Assembly: GCA_017409065.1 (NCBI GenBank)
Contig: JAFQTK010000032.1
Span: forward strand, 1-38,140
Direction: 5' to 3'
From: a bacterium
Lineage (GTDB): Bacteria > Cyanobacteriota > Vampirovibrionia > Gastranaerophilales > Gastranaerophilaceae
Length of the DNA: 38,140 nucleotides
The position numbers and the translations under genes are program-made. Shown in pieces: positions 30,970 to 36,060 of this stretch (positions within the stretch are counted from its first letter, which is position 1; every line of letters starts with the position of its first letter). Under the pieces are notes generated by a model, which saw only the letters and a list, made by a program, of their open reading frames with translations, did not search any database and was not told the origin of the DNA.

Positions 30970-33852
30970 ATGTCACAAAAAACGTTGATTTTGATAGATG
31001 GTCATGCTTTAGCTTTTAGAAGTTATTTTGCATTAGAGCGAAGTGGAATGAAAACTACATCTAATCAACCAACTTTTGCTGTTTATGGTTTTTTTAAAGC
31101 TGTTTTTGACCTTTTAAAAAACCCTCTTCTTAAACCTGATGCCATTGCTGTTGCATTTGATGTCGGAAGAGAAACTTTTAGGTTGAAGGAATATGCTGAG
31201 TACAAAGCCAACCGTGAAACAATGCCTGATTCTCTTCGTAGTCAATTACAGTTAATCATTGAGGGGTTAGAATCTTTTAATATTCCGATTTATACAAAAG
31301 AAGGCTTTGAGGCGGATGATGTAATAGGAACAATCGCAAAAGAAGCAAAAGAACTTGGACATAAAACAATTATTTTAACAGGGGACCAAGATGCATTTCA
31401 GCTAATAGATAGGGGTGGTTATGTTAAAGTTTTAATCCCTTCTAAAGGAGAGCTTAAAGAATATGATTGGAATGCAGTTTACGAAAAAGTGCAGGTTTAT
31501 CCTTTTCAGATAGTTGATTACAAGGCTCTTAGAGGTGATACGTCTGATAATATTCCGGGGATTCGTGGTATTGGCGAAAAAACAGCGGTTAAATTATTAG
31601 ATAGATTTGAAAATTTAGAACAAATTTTTGCTCATTCTGATGAGATTAAAGAAAAAGCTATTAAGTCAAAAATTAAAGAAGGGGAAGAAATTGCTAGATT
31701 AAGTCAATTTTTAGCCCGAATCAAAACAGATGTTGATATTAATTTTGATTTTGACAAAACAAAATTAGAGATGCCTGATATAGAACAAGTTGGTGCATTT
31801 TTCCAAAAAGTTCAGTTTTTTAACTTTTTGAGGAATATAAAAGAAATATTGAAGCCTTTTTCTTCTGTTGAAAATAATGAATCTATCTTAAATTTACCTA
31901 CGGATGAAGATTTAGGGGCATTACAATCAGGGCAAATGCAATTAGGATTATTTGATACGGTGCAAAAGCCAAAATGCAATACTAATTTTAATTTTGAAAA
32001 ACACACATTAACTCAAGAAGCTGATTTTGAAAAGTTTATTTCTGAATTGAAAGAACAAACATTGTTTTCTATTGATACTGAAACGACAGGAATTGATATT
32101 ATGGAAGCAGAATTGGTCGGAATATCAATTGCTTTTAACCCTCAAATAGGTGCTGAAAATGGTAGAGTAAAAATAAATTGTAATGCTGAAAATAAAACAA
32201 AATCATATTATATTCCGGTATTTCATCAAATTGGAGAACAGCTGGATTTAGATTATGTTTTAGACCATTTAAACCCAATTTTAGTTGACAAAAATATTTA
32301 TAAAACGGCTCAAAATGCCAAGTATGATATAAATATCTTGTACAGGCATGGTGCAAATTTAGAAAATGTAATTTTTGATACTATGTTGGCAAGTTATGTA
32401 AAAGATTCTTCTCGTAAACACGGTTTAAAGAATCAAGCAGGTGAACATCTTAATTATTTGATGAAAGATATAGAAGTTTTAATTGGCAAAGGCAAACATG
32501 CTGAAACTATGGAAAGAGTTTTAATTGAGGATGCTTCGGACTATGCTTGTGATGATGCTTTTGCGACTTTAGAGTTGACTCGTTTTTGGGTTGAAAATTT
32601 AAATGAGAAAGAAAAGAATCTACTTTATGATTTGGAAATTCCATTGATGTATATTCTTGCAGAAATGGAGCGAGATGGGGTTTCTATTGACAAAGATTAT
32701 TTGAATGAATTATCCGTTGAGTTGGAAGCCAAAACAAATTCTCTAGAGGCAAGAATTTGGCAAATGGCAGGAACGGAGTTTAATATAAATTCTCCTCGTC
32801 AGGTTGGAGATGTTTTGTTTGAAAAATTGCAACTTAAATCTAAATCTAAACAAAAAACTCGAACAGGATATTCTACGAATGCAAAGATTTTGGAAGAATT
32901 AGCAGAAAATAATGAGATAGTAAGACTTATTCTTGAATACAGACATTATCAAAAACTCAAATCTACTTATATTGATTCATTACCATTATTAGTTTCGTAT
33001 GATGACCGAGTTCATACAAGTTTTAATCAAGCGGCAACAGTTACAGGTAGATTATCATCTTCTAATCCTAATTTACAAAATATTCCGATAAGAACGGAAG
33101 TAGGAAATAGAATAAGAAAAGCCTTTGTGCCAAAAGATAAGCTTAATAGCGTAATTGTGTCAGCTGATTATTCTCAAATAGAGTTAAGATTATTGGCTCA
33201 TTGTTCACGAGATGATGAATTAATTGATGCTTTTTGTTCTGATGAAGACATTCATACGACGACTGCTTCAAAAGTTTTTGAAGTTCCGTTAGACGGTGTT
33301 GAAAAAGATATGAGAATAAAGGCAAAGGCAGTTAATTTTGGAATAATATACGGACAGACCCGTTATGGATTGGCAAAATCTTTAGGTATTTCTTCTAACG
33401 AAGCTCAATTATTTATTGATAAGTATTTTGCAACTTACCCTAGAATTAGACAATTTATGAATGAAACAATTCAATATGCCTATGATAACGGTTATGTTGA
33501 AACAATGTATGGAAGAAAGAGATATTTGCAAAATGAATTAATGTCTTCTAATCGTCAAATAAAAGAATTTGGCGAAAGAGCTGCAATTAATGCCCCTATG
33601 CAAGGAGCAGCTGCGGATTTGGTTAAATTTGCAATGTTAGAAGTCCACCGTCAATTGAAACAACGTGGCTTAAAGTCTAAAATGATTATACAAGTTCATG
33701 ACGAATTAGTTTTGGAAGTTGAAAAAGCTGAATTAGAAGAAGTTAAACAAATTGTTCAATCTGCTATGGAGTTAGGACAGCCGTTGTTAGTTCCGTTGAA
33801 AATAGATGTGCAAGTCGGCTCAAGTTGGATGGAGTCTGAGAATGAAGAATAG
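30970..33852 (+). CDS. polA: DNA polymerase I
   Basis: Repair and Okazaki-fragment polymerase. At 960 residues it has all three domains. The 5'-nuclease domain (1-~290) has IDGHALAFRSYFA, GFEADDVIGT and GIRGIGEKTA. The 3'-5' exonuclease retains its catalytic acids: DTET at ~369-372, NAKYD, and the YACDD segment of exo III, so proofreading appears intact. The polymerase domain shows motif A SADYSQIELRLLAH (~731), motif B KAKAVNFGIIYGQTRYG (~784) and motif C VHDELVLEV (~909). GGAGAGAA precedes the ATG. The small exported-protein gene starts inside its last codons. Confidence 0.97.
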   Translation: MSQKTLILIDGHALAFRSYFALERSGMKTTSNQPTFAVYGFFKAVFDLLKNPLLKPDAIAVAFDVGRETFRLKEYAEYKANRETMPDSLRSQLQLIIEGLESFNIPIYTKEGFEADDVIGTIAKEAKELGHKTIILTGDQDAFQLIDRGGYVKVLIPSKGELKEYDWNAVYEKVQVYPFQIVDYKALRGDTSDNIPGIRGIGEKTAVKLLDRFENLEQIFAHSDEIKEKAIKSKIKEGEEIARLSQFLARIKTDVDINFDFDKTKLEMPDIEQVGAFFQKVQFFNFLRNIKEILKPFSSVENNESILNLPTDEDLGALQSGQMQLGLFDTVQKPKCNTNFNFEKHTLTQEADFEKFISELKEQTLFSIDTETTGIDIMEAELVGISIAFNPQIGAENGRVKINCNAENKTKSYYIPVFHQIGEQLDLDYVLDHLNPILVDKNIYKTAQNAKYDINILYRHGANLENVIFDTMLASYVKDSSRKHGLKNQAGEHLNYLMKDIEVLIGKGKHAETMERVLIEDASDYACDDAFATLELTRFWVENLNEKEKNLLYDLEIPLMYILAEMERDGVSIDKDYLNELSVELEAKTNSLEARIWQMAGTEFNINSPRQVGDVLFEKLQLKSKSKQKTRTGYSTNAKILEELAENNEIVRLILEYRHYQKLKSTYIDSLPLLVSYDDRVHTSFNQAATVTGRLSSSNPNLQNIPIRTEVGNRIRKAFVPKDKLNSVIVSADYSQIELRLLAHCSRDDELIDAFCSDEDIHTTTASKVFEVPLDGVEKDMRIKAKAVNFGIIYGQTRYGLAKSLGISSNEAQLFIDKYFATYPRIRQFMNETIQYAYDNGYVETMYGRKRYLQNELMSSNRQIKEFGERAAINAPMQGAAADLVKFAMLEVHRQLKQRGLKSKMIIQVHDELVLEVEKAELEEVKQIVQSAMELGQPLLVPLKIDVQVGSSWMESENEE

Positions 33853-34294
33853 TTTGTTATTTTTTCTTTGTTTTGTTCTATCGAGTTTGTCTGTATTTGC
33901 AAATTCTCCAATAGTGCAAACAAACCAAAGGCAAACAATAAAACCGGCTCAAATTGCTCAACCAAGACCTGTTTCACAGATTAATACACAACCAAAGCCA
34001 AAAGTTGTATCAACAAGCTTTGAAAATTGTGTAAAAACTTATCCAACAAGTGTTGAAAATTTGTTTTATCTTACTTTGGCCGCTATAAATAATGCAAATT
34101 ATGAAATAGATGAAATACAGTCCAGAACCGGTTATATTTCATTTTTATCAGGGCAAAAACCTTTTTTGGCTAGTATAACATCTATTAATGATAATTCATC
34201 AATGATTAAGATTACACCGATGGATAATAGTTACAACTTTTCTCCGTTGGTGGTAGATAAGATATTTGTCTATTTGACTAATAATATTAAATAA
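33842..34294 (+). CDS. Small exported hypothetical protein downstream of polA
   Basis: ATG 33842 overlaps the last codons of polA. The 150 residues start with a signal peptide (MKNSLLFFLCFVLSSLSVFA, cleavage before NSP), then a Gln/Pro/Thr-rich linker (~22-55; QTIKPAQIAQPRP). A folded domain follows: FENCVKTYPTSVENLFYLTL, YEIDEIQSRTGYISFLSG, SSMIKITPMD and a final helix LVVDKIFVYLTNNI. This looks like a small alpha/beta domain tethered outside the membrane; no family recognised. An earlier in-frame ATG (33806) would bury the signal peptide and is rejected. Confidence 0.75.
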   Translation: MKNSLLFFLCFVLSSLSVFANSPIVQTNQRQTIKPAQIAQPRPVSQINTQPKPKVVSTSFENCVKTYPTSVENLFYLTLAAINNANYEIDEIQSRTGYISFLSGQKPFLASITSINDNSSMIKITPMDNSYNFSPLVVDKIFVYLTNNIK

Positions 34295-34412
34295 AGGAGA
34301 ATATCAACGCACAACCTCTTTGTCAGCCTGAGAATGACGGGAGAAAAGTATTGCCTGAAAGTGGTAAATTATGATATATTGAAATAGTAGTAAAATAATG
34401 GAGAAGTGAAAT
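34295..34412 (+). promoter_or_regulatory. Gap holding a repeat fragment and a promoter for the pilin-collar gene
   Basis: A Shine-Dalgarno-like AAGGAG just after the preceding stop leads to no ORF. CCTGAGAATGACGG (34327-34340) resembles the end of the palindromic repeats at 35866-36009. A plausible promoter is TTGCCT (34351-34356), 18 bases, TATATT (34375-34380). GGAG (34400-34403) lies 9 bases before ATG 34413. Confidence 0.45.
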
Positions 34413-35300
34413 ATGAAAAACCTTAATTTACTAGGGGGGGGGGAGTTAAGAGGAAATAAAATTTCTTATTTTGATAAATCCCCCCGTATTAATAAAAAGA
34501 AAGCTTTTTCTATCGCAGAAGCTTTAATCACATTGGCAATTGTCGGGATTACAATAGGTTCTGCTGCCCCACTGATTTCTAAAACGATGAAAAACAGTCA
34601 GGTTGGTAATTTCCAAATGATGCAAATTAATAAAACACTTGATACAACCAAAAGTGATATAAATAATTTGAGAAATCAGATAAACTTAATAAGAACCAGT
34701 TTAGCAAATTATGTTACAAAAACCGAACTGACGACAACTTTAAGTAAATATGTAAAAATAACTGATTTGACCACAAAGCTCTCAAGTTATATTACTTCGG
34801 ACCAGTTAAATTCTCGTAATTATATTACGAGTGAATCTTTAACAGGCTTTTTAACGGACTCTGATTTAACAGCATTAAGAAACAGGCTTACAGCTTTAGA
34901 ACAAACACCGGCACCTACTAACGATAATTTCCCAATTGGTGGAATTATAATGTGGAGTGGAACCACAATACCTACTGGTTGGAAGTTATGCAACGGACAA
35001 AATGGAACACCTGATTTACGAGATAGGTTTATAGTCGGTGCAGGGAGCAGTTATGCTATTGGGGCTAAAGGTGGAGCAAGCACTGTTACATTGACAGCAT
35101 CACAAATACCGCCGCATAGACATCTTGTTCATGAGTATGCAGGTCCTGTTCATACAGATAAAACCAATCATAGGGCCCATGTTAACGCAGGAACTAACGG
35201 TGGGTCGTCTTCTTATACAGGAAGTATAGGTGGTGGACAAGCTCACGAAAACAGACCACCGTATTATGCTTTGGCTTATATTATGAAAGTATCAAATTAG
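34413..35300 (+). CDS. Prepilin-like N-terminus fused to a phage tail collar domain; contains a G10 tract
   Basis: 295 residues. A long basic leader (1-31) ends in KKKA, and the mature form would start F32-S-I-A-E36, with Glu at +5 and the hydrophobic helix ALITLAIVGITIGSAAPLI: a class III-type prepilin signal with Ala instead of Gly before the cut. Residues ~70-165 are a low-complexity helical stalk (LRNQINLIRTSLANYVTKTEL, then YITSDQLNS repeats) like tail-fibre shafts. Residues ~173-295 are a tail collar domain: FPIGGIIMWSG, PTGWKLCNGQNGTPDLRDRF, IPPHRH, and the end AHENRPPYYALAYIMKVS. HRH and HxD/H residues resemble metal-binding fibre tips. Ten G at 34434-34443 fall in codons 8-11. Likely a surface or pseudopilus adhesin; function not proven. 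Confidence 0.88.
   Translation: MKNLNLLGGGELRGNKISYFDKSPRINKKKAFSIAEALITLAIVGITIGSAAPLISKTMKNSQVGNFQMMQINKTLDTTKSDINNLRNQINLIRTSLANYVTKTELTTTLSKYVKITDLTTKLSSYITSDQLNSRNYITSESLTGFLTDSDLTALRNRLTALEQTPAPTNDNFPIGGIIMWSGTTIPTGWKLCNGQNGTPDLRDRFIVGAGSSYAIGAKGGASTVTLTASQIPPHRHLVHEYAGPVHTDKTNHRAHVNAGTNGGSSSYTGSIGGGQAHENRPPYYALAYIMKVSN
34434..34443 (+). repeat. G10 homopolymer, candidate phase-variation tract
   Basis: Ten consecutive G in a very A/T-rich genome, inside the leader of the pilin-collar gene. With nine G the frame reaches TAA two codons later; with eleven G it reaches TAA within a few codons. Only 10 (or 7, 13) keeps the protein open from this ATG. Confidence 0.8.
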
Positions 35301-35591: not shown

Positions 35592-35681
35592 GCTTTTACC
35601 GGAATTATAGGCAGTGGAGAAGCTCATGAAAACCGTCCGCCGTATTATGCTTTGGCTCATATTATGAAAGTATCCGATTAG
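35592..35681 (+). pseudogene. Truncated 3' end of a second tail-collar gene
   Basis: In one frame the DNA reads FTGIIGSGEAHENRPPYYAL followed by AHIMKVSD and a stop. This is nearly the same as the end of the intact gene (YTGSIGGGQAHENRPPYYAL, then AYIMKVSN). An in-frame TAG lies at 35586-35588 and nothing related is seen upstream, so about 30 codons of a former gene remain. Its downstream flank is also homologous (35690-35719). Confidence 0.85.
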
Positions 35682-35689
35682 AAGAGCGA

Positions 35690-35719
35690 GTGAGAATCCG
35701 GCAAAACCAAATAAAAAAG
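35690..35719 (+). repeat. 3'-flank repeat, copy 2
   Basis: GTGAGAATCCGGCAAAACC running into AAATAAAAAAG, following the truncated collar fragment as copy 1 follows the intact gene. Confidence 0.7.
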
Positions 35720-35865
35720 CTCCTACCGTTATTTTGAGGGGCGAATCCTCGTTAGATGGGCTTTAGTTTTTTAACTGGCTGGTTGAAACGCTGCCATTGC
35801 TGCGAATCCTAGCCAAATGGGCTTTAGTTCAAAGGTCTGGCTGATGGTGAAGCAGCGTTGCTGCC

Positions 35866-36009
35866 GTCATTCTGAGGGAGTCCGCAGGACGACTGAAGAA
35901 TCTCGCTGAATATAGACTTTGTGTGTCGAGATCCTTCGCTTTGCTCAGGATGACGAGGAGGCTTTTGCTCCGTGAGATTCTTCGCTTCGTTTCACTCTCT
36001 CAGAATGAC
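35866..36009. repeat. Palindromic repeat cluster (GTCATTCTGAG type)
   Basis: GTCATTCTGAG (35866-35876) is mirrored by CTCAGGATGAC (35944-35954, one mismatch), with inner CTGAAGAATCTC and GAGATCCTTCGC arms. A second right-hand half (GAGATTCTTCGC to CTCAGAATGAC) ends at 36009. This kind of dispersed intergenic palindrome is known from many bacterial genomes. No coding capacity. Confidence 0.75.
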
Positions 36010-36060
36010 TGTAGTAGGGTTTCAACTCGTCAGATTTTTGAGCTATGCTCAATTAGAGAT

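Follow-up and report, generated by a model that had tools for sequence, protein, structure and literature searches.

A run of ten G residues close to the 5´ end of a prepilin gene very probably serves as a translational ON/OFF contingency switch for this gene, which is one member of a multigene set. The gene is located in a stretch of 38,140 nucleotides from a member of the Gastranaerophilaceae (the window), and replication slippage would be the most economical explanation for its switching, a view which is based on the length differences found between paralogous tracts.

The G10 tract and its reading frames

The run was confirmed on the forward strand at positions 34434-34443, within the ORF 34413-35300, and, counted from the ATG at 34413, it spans codons 8-10 (GGG GGG GGG) and the leading G of codon 11 (GAG), precisely where the sequence-only reading had placed it. 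Dinucleotide shuffles of the whole window gave 0.02 expected chance matches of G9 or longer, and the second-longest G run of the window comprises six residues. With a window GC content of 31.6% and GGG accounting for 10.6% of the glycine codons, the probability that three glycines are all encoded as GGG GGG GGG is ~0.0012. Changing the tract length in silico revealed that G7, G10 and G13 yield ORFs of 294, 295 and 296 amino acids, whereas G8, G9, G11 and G12 end after 14, 11, 15 and 12 amino acids. The earlier expectation that gain or loss of one base leads to an early stop was hence borne out, all out-of-frame lengths stopping within 15 codons; the accompanying statement that only the present length is ON has to be reworded to ten plus or minus multiples of three, as G7 and G13 are ON likewise. 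The sequence from the tract up to the pilin signal with its hydrophobic segment was scanned and contains no ATG, GTG or TTG in frame, and the start-like codons found there are two ATT only (codons 17 and 26), which renders a useful start downstream of the tract unlikely; such a start had been named beforehand as an observation that would speak against the switch. Taken together, the locus carries a G/C homopolymer of at least nine residues (the threshold given in PMC5953494) inside the ORF and near its 5´ end, a one-base change abolishes the product without an alternative start as rescue, and ON and OFF lengths are both present among related copies, these being paralogues, not strains, all of which characterizes simple-sequence-repeat contingency loci. 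Control by an RNA hairpin, formed upon pairing of the G-run with a downstream C6, was also considered and rejected (z = -1.67; the C6 is absent from the paralogues).

The gene behind the tract

A putative sigma-70-type promoter (TTGCCT-18-TATATT, extended TG) was assigned to positions 34351-34380 of the forward strand by consensus match and by its conservation among paralogues, and resides in an upstream block that is common to the paralogous leaders. It is followed by a Shine-Dalgarno-like GGAGAAG (34400-34406, forward strand), well placed relative to the ATG at 34413 and identically spaced in the paralogues. According to sequence and frame tests, the forward-strand ORF 34413-35300 would encode a phase-variable prepilin of 295 amino acids that is ON at G10. 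Its leader (MKNLNLLGGGELRGNKISYFDKSPRINKKKA; 34413-34505, forward strand) carries a predicted prepilin-peptidase cleavage site after A31 and is succeeded by the hydrophobic pilin N-terminal helix (FSIAEALITLAIVGITIGSAA; 34506-34568, forward strand), both assigned from the sequence and PF07963. The PF07963 match of the window protein is weak (residues 27-51, E=0.004, 17.1 bits, under the cut-off of 21.2 bits), several of its tract-bearing relatives exceed this cut-off, and by inspection the class III signal is present, with KKKA directly preceding FSIAEALITLAIVGI, an A/G-F cleavage site, E5 and a hydrophobic helix. The C-terminal half was assigned as a tail-fibre/collar-like domain (approximately residues 133-293; 34809-35291, forward strand) by PHROG, Pfam and PDB matches, namely to the PHROG tail fibre families 8469 (E=5.7e-31) and 1800 (E=1.7e-27), to Pfam Collar PF07484 (23.2 bits, just under the cut-off of 24) and to solved tail-fibre chains in the PDB. 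Judged from its sequence, the window protein is to be regarded as a prepilin with a phage-tail-fibre-like C-terminus, whose processing and assembly are plausible since genes for a prepilin peptidase as well as for several T2SSE-type ATPases are present in the source genome.

Downstream of the gene, an orphan fragment (35592-35675, forward strand) resembles the pilin C-terminal 28 residues with 79% identity, which suggests a relic of another collar pilin and points to a deletion here or to an exchange of pilin bodies. Between the pilin gene and a tRNA, at 35700-36050, REP-like repeats of the GTCATTCTGAGG type are scattered. On the upstream side, a 162-amino-acid ORF (33806-34294) with a secretion-signal-like start and without family match overlaps the end of polA.

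Paralogous leaders in the source genome

The source genome (G000), a draft MAG of 2.18 Mb in 175 contigs, was found to possess 18 G/C runs of at least nine residues, most of which are located in prepilin leaders with promoter, ribosome binding site, ATG and tract as in the window gene. Among the approximately 13 such pilin leaders, four are ON and at least three are OFF, while one is broken and another locked, with ON/OFF calls being limited to leaders whose start and frame were readable. Next to the window gene (C18, G10), C26 (G10), C37 (G12) and C73 (G10) are ON, while C131 (G11), C27a (G10) and C36 (G10) are OFF. The tract of C150 is in frame with a nonsense codon ahead of the helix, C67 holds an interrupted tract (GGGTGGGGG) that reads ON, and C27b, the start of which is missing from the contig, would be out of frame if its leader resembles the others. 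C131 and C27a show 0 mismatches over 90 flanking bases and differ solely by one G. By length, this genome has seven runs of 7, three of 8, four of 9 (two of which are truncated at contig ends), seven of 10, two each of 11 and 12, and one of 15; the spectrum hence drops between G7 and G8 and climbs to a second peak at length 10, which is not what a random tail would produce. Two contigs end inside a tract, and several to many contigs end in these leaders.

The OFF and ON lengths among these paralogues, together with the early stops and the missing downstream start, are what slippage control predicts at the sequence level, and support the ON/OFF control that had been proposed from the window. 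MutS and MutL are intact in the source genome, so that loss of mismatch repair was rejected as the cause of the tract abundance; at the same time both proteins would count against the switch, as they would lower the rate of single-base slippage.

A few more features of leaders and tracts were noted in this genome. In C37 (L023) a window-type leader precedes a pilin of another class (AFTLAETLITL), and leaders are consequently common to different pilin bodies. The leader paralogue in C90 (L102) has its tract shortened to GGGG, and its pilin is out of frame close to a run of eight A (A8), which is possibly a second slippage site or a sign of decay. A G8 run at C161:20167-20174 (L104) immediately precedes the start codon (ATG) of a further prepilin (TTTAGGGGGGGGTATGAAA) and would serve there as Shine-Dalgarno sequence, so that a change of its length could tune translation and not the frame. 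Finally, a G15 run at C19:12877-12891, upstream of an ORF beginning with ATGGCAATCGACTTAACATCA that is no obvious pilin, is a candidate promoter-region tract.

Distribution and register within the family

Genomes were surveyed for a Shine-Dalgarno sequence, an ATG and a G9+ run 12-42 nt downstream, with the reversed pattern serving as control. Matches were obtained in 77 of the 191 genomes of the same bacterial family while the control remained almost empty, and 65, 98, 100 and 244 matches, each versus 0 for the control, were counted in G003, G012, G023 and G057, numbers which include overlapping placements and hence are not gene counts. Counts for whole genomes were derived from pattern tallies and from samples, the assemblies being consensus sequences and for the most part drafts. 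In sampled families from other parts of the order and phylum, at most 1-3 matches were obtained, about the control level, and the pattern scan returned zero such sites for the congener G001, meaning that the window gene is not conserved in the genus. Comparison of the leader pattern and the N-terminal protein with viral contigs returned nothing, and a scan of genome contigs for relatives suitable for strain comparison gave only collar-domain relatives in other phyla.

Small unbiased samples from G012 and G057, evaluated by a simple rule, yielded no clean prepilin tracts; in G012 the tract is located in a short ORF ahead of a pilin that has its own ATG. In leaders of G001 and G012 (L115-L131, L266), a G/C run of 11-15 is part of a conserved short ORF, downstream of which the pilin has its own ATG; in one G001 copy (L124, C14) this ORF and the pilin are fused in frame. 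A switching leader peptide possibly acts here by translational coupling. In G016, two ORFs of 330-363 amino acids (C23 and C35; L243, L244), one ON and one OFF, are preceded by Shine-Dalgarno sequence, ATG and tract, and their leaders read through REP-like repeats (CHPELVSGS).

The relationship of tract and prepilin was followed in a 400-kb sample of G023, where 23 of 28 tracts directly precede a prepilin signal and all but one of the 24 common-type pilin motifs (23 of 24) possess a tract. The tract-to-signal distance varies from 25 to 247 nt, and a common ON register (n = 11 modulo 3) was found in 22 of the 23 genes (P ~1.5e-9 under random phase), all 23 being stop-free in their own ON register. 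As this register is shared and stop-free, the post-tract stretch is maintained as coding sequence continuous with the upstream ATG. In the relatives it is the tract that breaks the frame, the variable sequence behind it being held in codon phase with that ATG. Lengths in G023 are G10 (18/23) and G11 (5/23), corresponding to four genes ON and 19 OFF. Targeted samples revealed 2 ON and 6 OFF for G073, 4 ON and 7 OFF for G011, 1 ON and 13 OFF for G137 (four OFF without open register), 0 ON and 3 OFF for G080 (one OFF without open register), 0 ON and 5 OFF for G054, and 0 ON and 1 OFF each for G128 and G203. Over these eight relatives, G023 included, 11 genes are ON, and a further 50 are OFF at a length which a change of one or two bases would restore to ON. 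The ON share amounts to ~18%, versus one third expected for random lengths, and the bias towards OFF could result from selection that keeps the number of pilins per cell low, or just from a preferred length of about 10.

Alternative explanations

The main molecular rival is transcriptional slippage, which, like programmed ribosomal frameshifting, would bypass the tract, with the DNA length being fixed and every cell making some in-frame product; for G023 this would mean that the standard state is G10 throughout, one base below the ON length. RNA polymerase can slip on long homopolymers, exactly G10 was found in 18 of the 23 G023 genes, nearly all of them one G short of ON, and the bodies of OFF genes stay open. 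However, near-identical copies differ in length, as documented by near-identical leaders with G9, G11 and G12 in G073 and by two G054 paralogues (~93% identity over the next 300 nt) with G12 and G10, each one base from ON. Furthermore, other genomes range from G9 to G13 with ON and OFF mixed, and the window gene, being in frame already, does not need slippage. We consider a bypass unlikely.

Still less probable is that the leader block and its G-run are mainly a recombination site, conserved 5´ cassettes allowing pilin bodies to swap while tract length matters little. It would account for one leader being found on two pilin classes (AFTLAETLI in C37, AFSIAEALI in C18), for the frequent contig ends inside leaders and for the collar-pilin relic downstream of the window gene, but it leaves the conserved ON register and the absent downstream start unexplained, and it is the entire leader that signals exchange, not the G-run within it. 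Cassette recombination at shared leaders is possible as a companion process that is compatible with the switch. That the run is ordinary coding sequence or a homopolymer length error is barely conceivable: the source is a draft MAG of 175 contigs, and MAG assembly could mis-set homopolymer lengths, but GGG makes up just 10.6% of glycine codons and a run in the corresponding position was seen again in many pilins from dozens of independently assembled genomes, with an almost empty reversed control.

Proposed mechanism

For the translational switch, the following course of events is suggested. Initially, slipped-strand mispairing at replication would add or remove a G within codons 8-11. With the length thus changed, the ribosome would either run out of frame, ending translation after 11-15 codons, or be brought back in frame to yield the full-length prepilin, the assembled source genome carrying an ON length. 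The ON product is expected to be inserted via its pilin helix and to have its leader cut by the prepilin peptidase of the genome, whereupon its receptor-binding, tail-fibre-like domain would be exposed on a fibre resembling type IV pili. Of these steps, in vivo slippage, assembly into pili and receptor binding are what we infer here. As leader-tract pilins would switch independently, a clone would show changing pilin subsets. Whether the G/C tracts of prepilin leaders constitute a combinatorial pilin code in the family, with nearly every prepilin of some species being independently phase-variable, most of them OFF and a small stochastic subset made per cell, is a proposal to which we give even weight for and against.

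If this holds true, cells of one clone could show different surface fibres, and a widespread uncultured family would possess slippage-controlled pilin repertoires. Surface display would then be unpredictable from genomes, with consequences for adhesion, for host recognition and for the receptors of phages. The resemblance that many such pilins would bear to pseudogenes or short ORFs in draft genomes would likewise be explained.

Comparison with known systems

Within the literature searched, no paper was found that treats Gastranaerophilales and phase variation together, nor a report that an entire pilin repertoire carries such tracts in its prepilin leaders, upstream of the cleavage site. A close likeness is offered by a gut commensal, Bifidobacterium breve, where replication slippage in the G-tracts of the sortase-dependent pilus genes bbr_0113 and bbr_1889 switches pili ON and OFF, as measured by maximum depth sequencing (PMC9187656). 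Here as there, an intragenic G-tract would control pilus expression; the B. breve pili, however, are Gram-positive sortase pili encoded at two loci, whereas type IV-like prepilins with the tract in the cleavable leader were identified here, the number of loci in a genome ranging from a dozen to perhaps a hundred. In Neisseria, a poly-G run (G9-20) in the reading frame of pilC switches a type IV pilus component ON and OFF, and ~15-19 poly-G tracts of all kinds were reported per genome (PMC5953494). PilC is a large pilus-associated protein present in one or two copies, whereas here the pilins themselves carry the tracts, and in some species their number, if the proposal is correct, probably exceeds the whole Neisseria poly-G set. 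Neisseria also varies its pilin antigenically by gene conversion from silent pilS copies into pilE. The present repertoire is similar to pilE/pilS in being large, variant and presumably mostly unexpressed, but each pilin is provided with its own ribosome binding site, ATG and tract. Many surface genes switch independently by poly-G contingency loci in the AT-rich genomes of Campylobacter (PMC6321876, PMC8355987), where the targets are mixed surface-structure genes; here they belong to one pilin family. Poly-G switching of pili as such was hence known already, while the placement of the tract, the number of loci and the lineage are, as far as could be checked, new.
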